Part shown: positions 5,992-48,524 of the stretch, piece by piece
How positions within the stretch are numbered: the first letter of the stretch is position 1
Layout: every line of letters starts with the position of its first letter
From: a virus
DNA length: 48,524 nucleotides
Virus record (IMG/VR): IMGVR_UViG_3300037635_000456
Coordinates: 1-48,524 of that record
Direction: 5' to 3' (one strand)
Notes under the pieces: model-generated
What the model was told of the DNA's origin: nothing
What the model saw: the letters and a program-made list of their open reading frames with translations, nothing else
Database searches by the model: none
Position numbers and translations under genes: made by a program

Positions 5992-7437
5992 CTAAGAATA
6001 GAATGAACCGAATGCGTCTCTTAGCCCTGCACGATAATCATCATTACCATCTCCGCTTGCTAGTCCAAATGAACCAAACATCTGGTTAACACCCTTTTGA
6101 GCGTTTGACTTTTTCTGGGCCAGATTGGCGTACGTCTGCTGAAGACCAGTTAGTGCAGAACTATAGCTACCACCCGATGACGGATACGCAGCTGAGGCTT
6201 TGTTTAGATAATTAGCTTGCTGATTAAGACCTTGGATCATGCCCCTGTCGTAAGCTGAGCCTGTATTGGCAGCAGTACCAAGATCAAACCGTCTTTCTTC
6301 TGCAGCTCTCAATGCGCTGTTACTTGGATTAATCTTGCGTAACGCATCACGCTTGGCTAGTCCTGCTCTTGACGCAGCTTTGCCATAAGCCTGTCTAGCA
6401 ATCTGCTGTGGGTCAAAATCATCGCCCAGCTTTAAAAACTTTTTAGCTTGCGCCATAGCAAAGTTATATGCCTTTTCATCTTTAGCTTTAAGATCTTCCA
6501 TCTGCTGCTTTTGCATTGCTAGAAGTTCTTTTTCTTCGTCAGACATTTTGCCTACGCCCATAATCTCAGCACCAATTAGGTTAATACCCGCCTGAATAGA
6601 CACATCTGCTAACTTAGTTGGGTCAGTAAACCTATTACCAATTTCGGACATAGTGTTACCAAACACGTTGTCACCAAACATTGGCGTATTTGGGGAACCT
6701 GCATAATTTTTAAGTTGCGCTGGTGAATATCCAGCATCAAGCATTGTTTCATAACTTGGTCTTGGCAGAGGTGTTGACACACCTGGTGCAGTAGCTGCCG
6801 TAAAAGTATTAGCATTAGGTGGTTGGGGCAAGCTGCCGCCAGGATAATTTGCTTGTATTATACCGCCTTGGTTTGCGGTAGCATTTGTTGTTACAGTGTT
6901 TTGCGAGGCCCCCAGACCGTCAACTCTAGTATTATTAAGAGAGTTTGCTGTAGTGTCACCGCCGCCAACAAAAGTAGATGCCTGTTGTTGATTCACTGAC
7001 GCATCTGTTACATAGTTCCCTGACACGGGATCAATAGCACCTGGGCCATAGGCATCTGCGTACACACTGTTTTGGTATGCATCAGGGCGGAAAGACTCAC
7101 CAGAGAATGCTTGGTTTTCAACACCGCCTGCAGATGTTCCTGGGTTGGAGTAGCCCGCCAAGCCCCCACTAAGTGCGCCCATTAACGCACCTGCTTTCAT
7201 GCCTTGTCCAGTGTATGACCCGACTGCCGCACCTAGTCCTGCACCAACCAAGCCCGAGGCCATTACAGAACCAATTGCTGTTGACAACCCAATAGAGCCT
7301 GCGATTGCAGGAGCCGCGATTGGTATTGCAACCATTGCTGCAACAGCCACAAGTTTTTTAAAACCCCCGCCTCCATGTTCTGTATATGGTTCAATGGGTG
7401 TTAAAGCTGTAGTGCTAACATAATCAATTTGTCTCAT
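5992..7437 (-). CDS. Probable internal virion or tail protein with Gly/Ala-rich N-terminal hydrophobic region, 481 aa
   Basis: Function not recognised from a catalytic motif. Residues of about 28-95 are rich in Gly and Ala (VGAGLGAAVGSYTGQGMKAG), the pattern of glycine-zipper membrane-inserting segments in phage DNA-ejection proteins. The middle (about 100-220) is Asn/Thr/Gln-rich and low in complexity. The C-terminal half is helical, with Lys/Glu/Gln-rich likely coiled coil around 300-340 (EEKELLAMQKQQMEDLKAK). Its start overlaps the end of the upstream acetyltransferase-like gene by 14 bases, and the transglycosylase gene follows after 9 bases. The order small GNAT-like protein, Gly-rich protein, transglycosylase, giant protein resembles the internal-core gene block of podoviruses, so an ejectosome role is a reasonable inference. 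Confidence 0.7.
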   Translation of the reverse strand: MRQIDYVSTTALTPIEPYTEHGGGGFKKLVAVAAMVAIPIAAPAIAGSIGLSTAIGSVMASGLVGAGLGAAVGSYTGQGMKAGALMGALSGGLAGYSNPGTSAGGVENQAFSGESFRPDAYQNSVYADAYGPGAIDPVSGNYVTDASVNQQQASTFVGGGDTTANSLNNTRVDGLGASQNTVTTNATANQGGIIQANYPGGSLPQPPNANTFTAATAPGVSTPLPRPSYETMLDAGYSPAQLKNYAGSPNTPMFGDNVFGNTMSEIGNRFTDPTKLADVSIQAGINLIGAEIMGVGKMSDEEKELLAMQKQQMEDLKAKDEKAYNFAMAQAKKFLKLGDDFDPQQIARQAYGKAASRAGLAKRDALRKINPSNSALRAAEERRFDLGTAANTGSAYDRGMIQGLNQQANYLNKASAAYPSSGGSYSSALTGLQQTYANLAQKKSNAQKGVNQMFGSFGLASGDGNDDYRAGLRDAFGSFYS

Positions 7438-31045: not shown

Positions 31046-31361
31046 GTGGTTGATCCTATGTGTAATGTACAATCCTGTCAACAAACTTTGCTAACTTGAC
31101 ACCTTCCTTTTTTTGCACCGTGTTATGCGAGGGTTACTTATATACTATGCGGTCACCGTGTCCAGTCCATGTACCCCCCCTACCGACCCCCATGCGCCTA
31201 TCGCCAAGGCATAATATACCCCCCTCTGAAACCCGCAGAAACCCTAGTAATTTGACATTGTGTATGGTTTTTGCTTCTATGTATTTGTCGCTGGCAACCG
31301 CCACGACATAACCCGTCATGCACAGCGTGGCTGTGTGTGACTCTTACTGGAGGATATTGCT
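31046..31361. promoter_or_regulatory. Divergent intergenic region between left and right arms
   Basis: No gene seen. Minus strand: TTGACA at 31081-31076 and TAGGAT at 31058-31053, spaced 17, ending at the TerS start. Plus strand: TTGACA at 31252-31257 with TTCTAT at 31275-31280, spaced 17, about 80 bases before the next gene; a further TTGACA at 31096-31101 has no clear -10. The leader has a CACAGC/GCTGTG hairpin (31321-31335) and GGAGG before the ATG at 31362. The middle is rich in C runs. All promoters here are by eye. Confidence 0.5.
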
Positions 31362-32057: not shown

Positions 32058-32222
32058 ATGGACACTACACTGCAAGATCTACCGACTGTAGGTTTGAGAA
32101 CCTGGTTGCAACGATCAGAGAATACAGGCAGCTATCGAGGTTATTCAAGACACGAGATAGCAATGGAGTTCATGAAGCGGGTACGAAAGAACCGCAGCAT
32201 GAAGAGATGCCTGCTAACATGA
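32058..32222 (+). CDS. Small basic early protein, 54 aa
   Basis: I take the ATG at 32058, which has AAAGGAAG eight bases before it, over a longer frame from 32042 that reads through the following terminator. It reads MDTTLQDLPTVGLRTWLQRS, ENTGSYRGYSRHEIAMEFMK, then RVRKNRSMKRCLLT. A helical, basic C-terminal half follows a short N-terminal part. The stop overlaps the first bases of the terminator. Function unknown. Confidence 0.6.
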   Translation: MDTTLQDLPTVGLRTWLQRSENTGSYRGYSRHEIAMEFMKRVRKNRSMKRCLLT

Positions 32223-32261
32223 GAGACGGGGCTTCGGCCCCTCTCTTTTTCTTTTTGTTTT
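32221..32261 (+). terminator. Rho-independent terminator of the first early unit
   Basis: GGGGC-TTCG-GCCCC at 32228-32241, flanked by GAGA and TCTC that can pair around a bulge, followed by CTCTTTTTCTTTTTGTTTTT. A UUCG-capped terminator with a long U-rich tract. It separates the three small early genes from the AT-rich gap and the downstream operon. Confidence 0.85.
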
Positions 32262-32348
32262 TTATTTTTTATATATATGACCATAGCTCGGGGGGTCATC
32301 GGGCTATAAATGCAACGACTATATACTGGGGGGGCTCTAACATGACAC

Positions 32349-32657
32349 AATCTAACAATCTATATGGGCCTGTTTAGTAACTTGACACAACATGTAGTGT
32401 TTTAGATTGTATAACATGACACATCCAGTAGTGTTTTCGCCCTGTTTACATGGGGTTATCCCATATATGTACTACTAAACAATCTAAATAATCTAAATAA
32501 TCTACAGTTTTTACATATATCACCTATAGAATATCATTCTGTAGCCATGATACAGGTTTGCCGTGCTAACATTACTTATAGATTTGTAGATTATTTAGAT
32601 TGTTTGCCATTAAATCATTGATAACACGACACCTTTTGTAATCCATTTGACAATCTA
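32349..32657. repeat. Array of ten AATCTA hexamers, candidate origin or operator
   Basis: Direct copies start at 32349, 32357, 32481, 32490, 32499 and 32652. Inverted copies (TAGATT) start at 32403, 32579, 32587 and 32596. The central three direct copies are spaced exactly 9 bases (unit AATCTAAAT), and the facing inverted trio is spaced 8 and 9. The two blocks form a large inverted repeat with about 75 bases between them. The surrounding DNA is AT-rich and has no gene from 32223 to 32790. Iteron-like spacing and AT-rich context suit a replication origin or a repressor-binding array. Confidence 0.75.
32383..32437 (+). repeat. Duplicated 21-base element TGACAC-N8-AGTGTTTT
   Basis: Copies at 32383-32403 and 32417-32437 share TGACAC at the start and GTAGTGTTTT at the end, with only a few differences between. 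The ACAC and GTGT ends form a small dyad in each copy. An offset of 34 bases puts them on nearly the same helical face. The first copy also holds a TTGACA. Likely paired binding sites or duplicated promoter elements. Confidence 0.65.
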
Positions 32658-32696
32658 TTATAGCACCGTCTCACAGATTAAACAGAGGGGGGCGAT

Positions 32697-32722
32697 TTGA
32701 CAAACCCTCGGCAGGGTGTCAA
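32697..32722. promoter_or_regulatory. Dyad TTGAC-AA-ACCCT / AGGGT-GTCAA upstream of next gene
   Basis: TTGAC (32697-32701) and ACCCT (32704-32708), then loop CGGC, then AGGGT and GTCAA (32713-32722). As RNA it is a hairpin with a two-base bulge; as DNA it is a palindrome around TTGACA. It lies about 70 bases before the next gene. Possible operator or leader hairpin. Confidence 0.5.
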
Positions 32723-32790
32723 GTTCTGGGGGCTTGGCGAGGTGGTCTCGTTATAGCATATTTAACCTAGTTTAATTGGAGATTATGAAA

Positions 32791-33153
32791 ATGGCTAGAA
32801 CTTTTAATGGTAATGTTGAAGCTTTCGTTGCACCTATTGCAAAGACTGTAAAGATTCGCAGTGAGAATGACCCACGTTATACTGGTGAAGGCAATGTATT
32901 TACGGCTGATAAGGCGGATGAACTATTCAAGGCTATGGTATCTGCTGGTGAGAAGTACTCTATACCTGTGTCTGTATTTGCACCAGATATTGAGAAGGGT
33001 CGTAAAGGTGGCTTCACTGTAGCTGAATTACAATCGTTGGATATGGAGAAGTATTCAGCGAAGTTACTTGGCGGTAGGTTCGGAGCATATGTCGCTGTAT
33101 TAGCTGACGATGATAACTCTGTATCAACTGGTGCTAAGACTATCGTTCTTTAA
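32791..33153 (+). CDS. Hypothetical protein, first gene of the second early unit, 120 aa
   Basis: GGAG at 32778-32781 is followed by ATG at 32785 and 32791; I take 32791 for its better spacing. It reads MARTFNGNVEAFVAPIAKTV, NDPRYTGEGNVFTADKADEL, then FKAMVSAGEKYSIPVSVFAP and GGRFGAYVAVLADDDNSVST. The alternating beta/helix pattern suggests a small single-domain fold; family not recognised. It follows the AATCTA array and is itself followed by a hairpin. Confidence 0.65.
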   Translation: MARTFNGNVEAFVAPIAKTVKIRSENDPRYTGEGNVFTADKADELFKAMVSAGEKYSIPVSVFAPDIEKGRKGGFTVAELQSLDMEKYSAKLLGGRFGAYVAVLADDDNSVSTGAKTIVL

Positions 33154-45365: not shown

Positions 45366-46071
45366 AACATTTACAACACCAAAAGGCGTAGCATTCTACC
45401 CTTACATTTCATCACCTGATACTAAGTTCGATGAGCAAGGACATTACAAAGTCAATCTGTGTATTCCAAAGGAAGAAGCAGAACCAATCATCGAACAGAT
45501 TAAGGGTGAGTTGGTTGCAGGTATCAAGGCGTTGAAAGAAGCCAAGCCTAACGCCAAGATTAAACAAGCACCACTGCCGTTTGAAGATGAGTTAGATGAT
45601 GACGATGAACCTACTGGTAACGTAATCATTAAATTCAAATCAAAAGCCGCCTATAAACCTGCTGTCTTTGATAGCAAGGGTACACCTATGATGAACTCTA
45701 ACATCTATGCAGGTTCTATACTCAAGGTGAATGGGTCTGTTGCTTTCTACAATTCACCTGCCGTTGGTGCAGGAACTACACTGCGACTAAGAGCAGTACA
45801 AGTTATTGAATATGTCGAAGGTTCTAGTGGTGCAGGTAAGTTTGGTTTCGGAGAAGAGACTGGGTTTACTATCGAAGATACTGAAGAGGTTGAAGACACC
45901 ACGCCTGAGGCTGTTGTCGAAGAAAAACCTGCGAAGCCAGCCCAGGCAGCCAAGCCTACACCCAAACCACAACCTGTTGAGCCAGCCCCTGTTAAGGAAG
46001 CGAGTTCTGATGCAGATGACTTAGCTAATGAGATAGCTAATCTATTGGATGAGGTGAACACTGATGACTAA
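45358..46071 (+). CDS. Single-stranded DNA-binding protein, DUF2815-like, 237 aa
   Basis: Start at the ATG at 45358, overlapping the previous gene by 8 bases; 48 further upstream bases are open but not fitting. MSKTFTTPKGVAFYPYISSP, KVNLCIPKEEAEPIIEQIKG, then VIIKFKSKAAYKPAVFDSKG, NIYAGSILKVNGSVAFYNSP and GTTLRLRAVQVIEYV: the DUF2815 pattern, an OB-fold SSB of phages. Then a Glu/Pro/Ala-rich linker and an acidic tip (ANEIANLLDEVNTDD), as in SSBs that recruit partners. Coats single-stranded DNA at the fork. Confidence 0.88.
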   Translation: MSKTFTTPKGVAFYPYISSPDTKFDEQGHYKVNLCIPKEEAEPIIEQIKGELVAGIKALKEAKPNAKIKQAPLPFEDELDDDDEPTGNVIIKFKSKAAYKPAVFDSKGTPMMNSNIYAGSILKVNGSVAFYNSPAVGAGTTLRLRAVQVIEYVEGSSGAGKFGFGEETGFTIEDTEEVEDTTPEAVVEEKPAKPAQAAKPTPKPQPVEPAPVKEASSDADDLANEIANLLDEVNTDD

Positions 46072-46342
46072 ACCCTTGGACTTTACCAAGGTTGAGGCGT
46101 TAAGGCGACACATGTTGCTGAGTGTACGAGACATAGCTATGGTTCTAGGTGTGTCTCGTATGACCTACTATGGTTGGCTTAAAGGCAAGCCATTGCGTAA
46201 ATCTAATGACGCTAAAGTTAGGGAGAAACTAAAGCAGTTGCTAGAGATTATGAAGGACGGATGGCCTCAACCAGATGTGATAGCTCTTGAGTCTGTCTCT
46301 CGCAGACAAAGACTCCTTGAGTTATTAAGTAATACAAGCTAA
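46064..46342 (+). CDS. Small HTH DNA-binding protein, 92 aa
   Basis: LRRHMLLSVRDIAMVLGVSR followed by MTYYGWLKGKPLRKSNDAKV is a helix-turn-helix of the Cro/XRE kind (D-I-A-x-V-L-G-V-S-R-x-x-Y-Y-G-W). The rest is helical (REKLKQLLEIMKDGWPQPDV). The start overlaps the SSB stop by 8 bases. As the only stand-alone HTH protein in the window, it is a candidate reader of the AATCTA sites. That is a hypothesis. Confidence 0.8.
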   Translation: MTKPLDFTKVEALRRHMLLSVRDIAMVLGVSRMTYYGWLKGKPLRKSNDAKVREKLKQLLEIMKDGWPQPDVIALESVSRRQRLLELLSNTS

Positions 46343-46404: not shown

Positions 46405-48524
46405 ATGGATACGCTAGGATTTTTACAGCGAGTCCTACCGTCTGAAGGCTATTATGTTTCTATAGTTGTCAACCCTGATGGGAGAAAACAGGGATTTTTT
46501 CAGACGATAGAAGAACTTGCTACTGCATGTAAACGGTTAGATAAAGCAGGTAACAATACTTATTTTGCCATATCATCTTTCATAGATAAGAGTAACCGCA
46601 AGCAAGAGAACGTAAACAAAACTAAGGTCATCGCTATTGACGTTGACTGCGGTGATGGCAAACCCTTTGCCGATTGGCGAGAGGGATTAAAAGCATTACA
46701 AGATTACATCGTTAGGATGAAGCTACCCAAGCCTATGGTAATAGGAAGTGGCAACGGACTGCATGTGTATTGGGTGCTTACCAAAGAGTTAGAGCCTGAC
46801 GATTGGAAACGTATTGCCAGTGGTGTCAAGGCTTCCGCATTAGATAAAGGTTTCAAAGCAGACGCAGGGTTGATAGCTAATAGCTCCCTTGTGTTACGTC
46901 CTATAGGTACGCACAACCCCAAGAATGGTAAAGAAGTTAAGCTACTCATAGATGCTGAACCTGTTGAGCCAGAGGTCATCGAAGCGAGGGTTGCTAACTA
47001 CGTCACTGCAGGGCCCGTGCAGTCAAGACATACATCTGACAACTCGTTGTTAAATAGTCTAGCGGCTAACGTAGAGTTCCCTCCATCAATTAGTTCTTCT
47101 ATCTACAACAAATGCCAGCAAATTAAATACGCTGTAGACAACCAAGACTCAGTAGCTGAACCAGTATGGTATAACGCTATAGGTATAGCCGCGTTCTGTA
47201 TTGACCCAGAAGATACTGCTCGGATGTGGAGTGAGAATTACCCTGCATACTCAGAGGTAGCCACCCTGTCCAAGCTACGTCATTGGAAAGATGGTGCCAC
47301 TGGCCCAACTACATGCGCTAAGTTTGATGTAGACAACCCTGATGGATGTAAAGGTTGTAAGTATAAAGGTAAGATAACTAGCCCCATACGCCTTGGCATA
47401 AGCTACAAAGAGGTACAGCTACAAGAGACCCTTGATAAAAAAGCTAGCCAAGTACAGCTACCCAAGCCATTCAAAAGAACTAACGATGGCATTAAGATAA
47501 CGCTAGACGATACAGATATAGATGTTTGTAAGTTTGATATATACCCTGTCTCTTATGGAAAGGACGAAACACTAGGCTACGAAACAGTACGTTACCATTG
47601 GAAGAGACCCCACGTTGGATGGCAGGAGCTTGTATTAAGACAAGCATACCTTACTGAAGGACACCGTGAGTTTGCTACCGCAATAGCAGACCAAGGTATA
47701 GTCCTTTACAACAAGAAACAAACGGAGTTTTTTCAGCTGATGTTAAGAACATATATGGATGAACTGAGGCACATAAGGTCGATGTCAAACCTATATGCTT
47801 CAATGGGATGGAAAGAAAACAACACACAATTTGTTCTGGGTAACACGTTGTTCCGCAGCTCGGGCGGCGAAGTAACAAAAGAAACAATATCTTTAGCCTC
47901 GGCATCAAACAAGACTAGCCAAGACTTGTATGGAACCAAAGGTACAGTAGCTAACTGGGTAGAGTTGACAAACCTACTAGAGAAAGCAGGTATGCCTTGG
48001 CATATGTTTGTGCTAGGCGTAGGATTCTCTGCACCCTTGTACAACTTCACAGGACTCAAGGGTTTAACTATATCTTTATACGGCCCTACTGGAGGTGGTA
48101 AGACACTAGCACAGTTCTGGGCGCAGTCTATATATGGTGATCCAGTGAAGCTACACTTTACAGCTAAGTACACACAGAACTCTTTGTTCAGTAGGTTAGG
48201 TCTTTATGGACACCTACCGCTAACAGTGGACGAAGTTACCATGATGCAAGACAAAGAGGTTGGTGATTTTTGTTACTGGGTATCACAGGGCAGAGACAAA
48301 GCTAGACTCAACCGTAACGCAGAAGAGCGTGATGCTAAGACATGGGCTACACCTGTTATAGTATCCACCAACAAGTCTTTGCAAAGCAAACTGATTGCCA
48401 GCGGATTAGAAACAGACGCACAGATGGCTCGGTTATTAGAGATAAACATACCGAAGCACAATATATTTACGAAAGATTCAAGTACTGGGCGTAAGATATA
48501 TGGCTTAATCAATTCAAACTACGG
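46405..48524 (+). CDS. Primase-helicase (AEP-like primase plus DUF927-like ATPase), C-terminus off the window
   Basis: Open from the ATG at 46405 to the edge, 706 complete codons. Residues of about 75-130 fit an AEP primase: KVIAIDVDCGDG (Asp79, Asp81) and GSGNGLHVYWVL (His120). A small Cys motif, C-A-K-F-D-V-D-N-P-D-G-C-K-G-C (about 304-318), could bind zinc. From about 540 on, GFSAPLYNFTGLKGLTISLY and then GPTGGGKTLAQFWAQ (Walker A at 560-567) mark a DUF927-type ATPase; HLPLTVDEVTMM holds Walker B and VIVSTNKS the sensor. One protein would prime and unwind at the phage fork. The hairpin before it may tune its level. Confidence 0.88.
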   Translation, partial: MDTLGFLQRVLPSEGYYVSIVVNPDGRKQGFFQTIEELATACKRLDKAGNNTYFAISSFIDKSNRKQENVNKTKVIAIDVDCGDGKPFADWREGLKALQDYIVRMKLPKPMVIGSGNGLHVYWVLTKELEPDDWKRIASGVKASALDKGFKADAGLIANSSLVLRPIGTHNPKNGKEVKLLIDAEPVEPEVIEARVANYVTAGPVQSRHTSDNSLLNSLAANVEFPPSISSSIYNKCQQIKYAVDNQDSVAEPVWYNAIGIAAFCIDPEDTARMWSENYPAYSEVATLSKLRHWKDGATGPTTCAKFDVDNPDGCKGCKYKGKITSPIRLGISYKEVQLQETLDKKASQVQLPKPFKRTNDGIKITLDDTDIDVCKFDIYPVSYGKDETLGYETVRYHWKRPHVGWQELVLRQAYLTEGHREFATAIADQGIVLYNKKQTEFFQLMLRTYMDELRHIRSMSNLYASMGWKENNTQFVLGNTLFRSSGGEVTKETISLASASNKTSQDLYGTKGTVANWVELTNLLEKAGMPWHMFVLGVGFSAPLYNFTGLKGLTISLYGPTGGGKTLAQFWAQSIYGDPVKLHFTAKYTQNSLFSRLGLYGHLPLTVDEVTMMQDKEVGDFCYWVSQGRDKARLNRNAEERDAKTWATPVIVSTNKSLQSKLIASGLETDAQMARLLEINIPKHNIFTKDSSTGRKIYGLINSNY

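Follow-up and report, generated by a model that had tools for sequence, protein, structure and literature searches.

A probable phage replication origin with facing iteron arrays, set apart from the gene of its putative DUF927 initiator

The non-coding gap and its neighbouring genes

The window analysed here, 48,524 nucleotides in length, is the whole of a 48.5-kb environmental virus contig for which no DNA similarity to phage records was found. The record is incomplete, since the contig breaks off within a primase-helicase gene; near relatives measure 53-57 kb. The virus encodes its own terminase, portal, major capsid and internal virion proteins, and its late genes run leftward from about 30.4 kb. 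The rightward operon contains genes for a CobS-like AAA ATPase (33856), a DUF2201 metallopeptidase/VWA protein (35719), PolA (39349), an exonuclease (41775), a VRR-type endonuclease (42464), an SNF2-type helicase (42753) and a gp2.5-like SSB (45310). A small HTH protein (46064..46342, plus strand; HTH_23, 1.5e-7) is encoded directly upstream of the primase-helicase. It is conserved in relatives, and its recognition helix is invariant although the iterons described below differ.

The primase-DUF927 helicase gene (46405..48524, plus strand; Pfam DUF927, 6.9e-27) is cut off by the end of the window, and the complete protein has 944 aa in relatives L141 and L057. It was recovered in eight of the ten relative records searched, the remaining two being fragments. 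Its matches in the PDB include 5dgk (SCCmec Cch, 1.3e-9) and 8tch (a pathogenicity-island protein, 4.5e-8). A model of the C-terminal third, of moderate confidence (pLDDT 63), has Cch as its best fold match (E 2.9e-4, probability 1.00, TM-score 0.27). A profile search of the window's helicase did not detect PF18662, the HTH domain of Cch.

Upstream of this operon lies a non-coding gap of 568 bp (32223..32790), between an ORF that stops at 32222 and a gene that starts near 32776-32791. The upstream small genes are closed by an intrinsic-terminator-like stem with a T tail (32228..32241, plus strand), both parts of which are kept in relatives. This agrees with an initial annotation of the sequence, which had described an AT-rich gap of this length after a terminator and before the replication-side operon. 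At the left edge of the gap, directly after the T tract, alignments reveal a near-invariant block, CCATAGCTCGGGGGGTCATC (32281..32300), which is almost unchanged across the clade and reads CCATAGTTCGGGGGGTTAT in the clade with TATCTA iterons. The first gene after the gap (32776..33153, plus strand) has no assigned function. A hairpin around GGCGAGGTGGTCTCG (32735-32753), in the 5' leader of this gene, is kept in 10 relatives, with 7 pairs and one compensatory change, and is possibly an RNA element.

The gap contains ten copies of the hexamer AATCTA, six direct (32349, 32357, 32481, 32490, 32499 and 32652) and four inverted (32403, 32579, 32587 and 32596). All ten had been listed in the initial annotation, and its spacings are correct as well. 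Core array 1 (32481..32504, plus strand) consists of three direct iterons with a 9-bp period, which are nearly invariant in the aligned group A. It faces core array 2 (32579..32601, minus strand), in which three inverted iterons follow each other in steps of 8 and 9 bp. Two inverted-repeat arms of 19 nt, 32477-32495 and 32587-32605, are perfectly complementary and include core iterons. Between the arrays is a spacer of 66% A+T with a conserved CCTATA (32505..32578). To the left are an outlying pair of direct iterons (32349..32362), where most relatives have two direct sites 7-13 bp apart, and a lone inverted iteron (32403..32408), which in most relatives lies 78 bp from core array 1, start to start. 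To the right is one outlying direct iteron (32652..32657); most relatives, and unrelated DUF927 phages too, have an outlying site on this flank.

A second motif, TAAC(A/T)TGACACA, occurs in three copies (32338, 32378 and 32412; 32338..32423, plus strand), and words related to it, AACTTGAC and AACTTTACA, are enriched in the gaps of relatives. The shorter form TAAC(A/T)TGACAC, found three times in the gap, is also present once in the divergent promoter region (31083-31105).

By nearest-neighbour energies, no other stretch of the window is as unstable as the gap, whether measured over 60, 100 or 250 bp. The same gap is the least stable DNA in G003 and, at 250 bp, in G001 and G002. Within the gap of the window, the least stable 80-bp duplex is 32463..32542. 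The spacer together with core array 1 is proposed as the site of melting. GC skew, which the initial annotation had recommended as a check, did not help to locate an origin: the minimum, at 31323, coincides with the divergence of transcription about 1 kb from the array, and it tracks the strand switch in the window and in four relatives. It was therefore set aside as evidence.

The array is far denser than base composition predicts. In 20,000 order-1 Markov copies of the gap, AATCTA occurred 0.43 times on average and at most five times, compared with the ten copies observed, and this bears out the earlier expectation of fewer than one copy by chance. Even when any 6-mer was allowed, the best count in 500 simulated gaps was 7. 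Since AATCTA is only mildly enriched in the window as a whole (46 copies, 32.6 expected), the enrichment is local. The initial annotation had considered that a similar density elsewhere would speak against the idea; a blind scan for the densest 6-mer cluster found no other place in the window equally dense in any 6-mer. In that scan AATCTA in the gap ranks first in the window, G004 and G007, TATCTA in the same gap ranks first in G001 and G002, and the gap of G003 ties for the top count.

Conservation of the array among relatives

Relatives were gathered by scans with the neighbouring genes, and they form a large clade; one early protein alone matches 367 stretches. At least seven copies of ATCTA are found within 350 bp upstream of the ATPase gene in 66 of the 70 loci that have enough upstream DNA, some of which are near-duplicates, and the maximum in the downstream control is 5. 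A stricter control, in which permuted pentamers were counted in the same AT-rich upstream DNA and the best of six was taken, centres near 6 with a tail to 13. Because these controls reach 13, a high count in AT-rich DNA does not settle the matter by itself. The case for an origin rests on geometry and gene linkage, and not on density alone.

The geometry of the clade can be written as '>> (7-13) -35- < -78- >>> (9,9) -80 to 111- << (9) -42 to 56- >', where distances are measured start to start and > and < stand for direct and inverted iterons. The 78-bp distance is kept despite poorly conserved DNA within it. In group A, where the median pairwise identity is 63%, iteron columns have a conservation of 0.87, compared with 0.70 in the rest of the gap, and no circular shift of the iteron mask reaches 0.87. 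The orientation of the central segment is identical in aligned relatives.

The iterons begin with A in one clade and with T at every site in others, while both A and G occur as the first base in L040; in a remoter clade CTATCT stands at the same place. Such joint change of the sites between clades would be as expected if all of them were bound by one protein. The array thus persists in close relatives, whose loss of it had been named by the initial annotation as an argument against a function. In several clades the gene to the right of the array has been replaced by different genes, while the array stays. No array was found 3' of the primase-helicase gene in 17 relatives, in 3' flanks of up to 700 bp.

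The pattern is not seen in every phage with related replication genes. The Rhizobium phage RHph_TM3_14A, a distant relative, has the same replication gene set, and neither this phage nor the Pseudomonas phage Rollin, which have related replication genes and repeat-rich gaps, contains a clear facing array. Upstream of its replication gene set RHph_TM3_14A has a 770-bp AT-rich gap with TCATAA/TAATGA repeats (L082, 19356-20000), possibly an origin of another form.

Arrays beside other DUF927 helicases

To look for the facing geometry elsewhere, 2.9 million viral contigs and 257 Gb of prokaryote genomes were scanned with a pattern for it, which returned 56 viral stretches and one bacterial stretch. 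Protein matches place 54 of the 56 in the present clade, and L273 belongs to it by its TCGGGGGG block and its array. The bacterial match, Bacteroides L275, consists of tandem CTAGATTTT-like repeats and was judged to be due to chance.

L256 is the only viral match outside the clade, and a comparison with twelve window proteins, covering terminase, capsid, portal and early proteins, gave no match in it. It has facing TATCTAACA arrays (6150-6500) with a very AT-rich spacer, directly 3' of a helicase gene. The product of this gene is a DUF927 helicase with a Cch-type HTH domain, and a profile comparison of it with the window's helicase gave a weak result.

Further DUF927-helicase loci were examined in five named phages (THSA-485A, FP_Epona, AC844P1, Jekyll and phiRg507T2_3) and the gut contig MT835739. 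Each of the six loci has its densest 6-mer cluster in a short-repeat array that occupies the gap directly 3' of the helicase gene or, in phiRg507T2_3, the gap after one further small gene. These arrays are unannotated (L280 5170-5460, L281 5354-5637, L283 3443-3740, L284 3426-3593, L285 3623-3823 and L286 3360-3661), and they are probably the origins of the phages in question. The iterons are GTAAC- or GGTGAAA-based and thus unrelated in sequence, and the spacings are similar. Among the eight replication-side window proteins compared with these loci, only the helicase and, once, the VRR protein were detectable (E<1e-3), the helicase in three of the loci with E values down to 1e-15.

The plan of L040, from the present clade, is '> -9- > -107- < -9- < -42- > -13- <'; that of THSA-485A is '> -9- > -106- < -7- < -52- > -13- <' and that of phiRg507T2_3 is '> -9- > -87- < -9- < -43- > -13- <'. 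The window itself reads '> -9- > -9- > -80- < -8- < -9- < -56- >', next to '> -8- > -8- > -87- < -9- < -8- < -43- >' in MT835739 and '> -7- > -9- > -95- < -8- < -8- < -42- >' in Jekyll. AC844P1 fits less neatly. The motifs for this comparison were picked after the clusters had been seen, so the agreement is descriptive and does not amount to a formal test.

Interpretation and comparison with known systems

Taken together, the gap is very likely a phage replication origin served by a DUF927 initiator, similar to those of SaPIs and other PICIs, and lying about 14 kb from the initiator gene. The observed basis consists of the arrays with their fixed, conserved architecture, the way in which all the sites change together, the low duplex stability and the link between such arrays and DUF927 helicase genes. 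The initial annotation had left the choice between an origin and a multi-site operator; the origin has gained strong comparative support, while the operator explains less and is much weaker. The annotation had also put forward the HTH protein encoded at 46064-46342 and the primase as candidate binders, and here the DUF927 helicase part of the primase-helicase encoded from 46405, rather than the HTH protein, is named as the likely initiator.

By analogy, the primase-DUF927 helicase would bind the ATCTA iterons and assemble on the two facing arrays with their 9-bp period, whereupon the AT-rich DNA between and beside them would melt. Helicases could then load onto the opened strands and the fused primase could begin new strands, with PolA, the SNF2-type helicase and the gp2.5-like SSB joining in synthesis. 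Replication would presumably run both ways from the gap. Several observations count against this reading. The array, at the head of the replication operon, is 13.7 kb upstream of the start of the initiator gene, whereas in PICIs, SCC elements and the other DUF927 cases the two are together. PF18662 is undetected, the structural model is modest (pLDDT 63, TM-score 0.27) and the profile comparison with L256 is weak. The GC-skew minimum is about 1 kb off, and RHph_TM3_14A is without a comparable array.

An alternative that changes only the binder is that the HTH protein, another early protein or a host factor recognises the iterons at the origin and recruits the helicase indirectly. The HTH gene sits directly before that of the primase-helicase, and every relative with coverage has both this gene and the array. 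However, the array plan persists in distant phages that share the DUF927 helicase, and for SaPI Rep and Cch2 direct binding to the iterons is reported (PMC7581432). We consider indirect recruitment improbable, though not negligible. The odds are similarly poor, and a little lower, for a multi-site operator or enhancer: a phage regulator, for instance the HTH protein, would bind here and govern the rightward replication operon, with the promoter to the right of the last site. The gap does lie at the operon head, the stretch from the last iteron to the gene has a TTGACA element (32697) and, after it, a conserved 5' leader, and the HTH gene is conserved in relatives. Yet operator sites should be near the promoter and travel with the regulated gene; here the sites are spread at fixed distances over 300 bp, the closest is separated from the putative -35 element downstream by about 40 bp, and the array outlasts replacement of the gene that follows it. 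Moreover, the recognition helix of the HTH protein is invariant, yet the first base of the site differs between clades, and L256 and the other DUF927 phages share the array plan although no HTH homologue is detectable in the loci examined.

The facing inverted arms, and a position near the terminase side of the genome, would also suit a packaging (pac/cos), partition or site-specific recombination site. This is very improbable, given that the geometry is common to phages sharing little but the DUF927 helicase and that the central segment has the same orientation in aligned relatives. Chance alone might be thought to have gathered an AT-rich word in this non-coding DNA, given the AT-richness of the gap and the slight enrichment of AATCTA throughout the window, but simulated gaps hold five copies at most, and positions and spacings are conserved across diverged phages. 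This reading is rejected as practically excluded because the array is conserved in relatives. Smaller readings of parts of the gap were dropped too. A match to Rfam ncr952 scored 25.4 bits against a gathering score of 100 and was put down to chance; a phage-RNA-polymerase promoter at the central CACCTATAGA has no second exact copy in the window; the folds predicted for a central hairpin differ between relatives, and it was not accepted as a conserved structure. Helical phasing of the variable central spacer, inspected by eye, was unsupported.

That DUF927 initiators use origins with two iteron sets is already known from islands. An autonomous phage clade in which such an origin is uncoupled from the initiator gene was not found in the freely readable literature, the original SaPIbov1 origin studies lying outside it. 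Nor was a spacing grammar shared with other phages that have unrelated iterons, in literature of the same scope, and priority is not certain. It is reasonably probable that the DUF927 (Cch/SaPI-Rep-like) helicases of unrelated phages and islands share an origin grammar independent of sequence (a direct set, an AT-rich spacer of 80-120 bp, a facing inverted set and an outlying site about 42-56 bp further), and that a widespread clade of environmental tailed phages has uncoupled the origin from the initiator gene. If so, an arrangement that has been reported, among bacterial replicons, for PICIs only would instead characterise the initiator family in general, with the phages described here as counter-examples. 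A testable origin and initiator would be available for a large environmental phage clade and for several named gut and thermophile phages. The iteron series AATCTA, TATCTA, CTATCT, TATCTAACA, GTAAC-type and GGTGAAA, beside related helicases, would make a natural comparison set for asking in what way helicases that load themselves recognise their origins, and how the spacing of sites guides their assembly.

Among known systems, fusions of DUF927 domains to AEP primases were predicted to serve mobile elements as replicative helicases (PMC5862659). The pRN1-type AEP primase-helicase replicons resemble the window in having a primase-helicase fusion and an origin in non-coding DNA, but pRN1 requires a 100-nt stem-loop 3' of the rep gene (PMC4234260), where the window has iteron arrays plus a short, weakly supported central hairpin. 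The SCCmec system is similar in that the window's helicase is related to Cch (5dgk) and that short direct repeats have been proposed as iterons (PMC7581432). It is different in that the Cch2 origin consists of AAGTG repeats downstream of its own gene, and Cch2, unlike the window's DUF927 helicase, is of another helicase family (PMC7581432).

In SaPI/PICI origins, two sets of short iterons flank an AT-rich segment and are served by a Rep helicase (PMC6092414, PMC7581432). By these published descriptions, the window is alike in its two iteron sets around an AT-rich segment and in a DUF927-type helicase encoded by the same element. Unlike the islands, its origin does not directly follow the initiator gene on the 3' side but is about 14 kb away, its helicase is fused to a primase, its iterons are ATCTA-based, and it belongs to an autonomous tailed-phage clade with its own virion genes, and not to a satellite. 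Closest in plan are the arrays of THSA-485A, FP_Epona, AC844P1, Jekyll, phiRg507T2_3, MT835739 and L256. These seven arrays are placed directly 3' of the helicase gene, unlike that of the window, and their iterons are GTAAC- or GGTGAAA-based, or TATCTAACA in L256; with the window they share a direct set, an AT-rich spacer of about 87-120 bp, an inverted set and an outlying site about 42-52 bp further.
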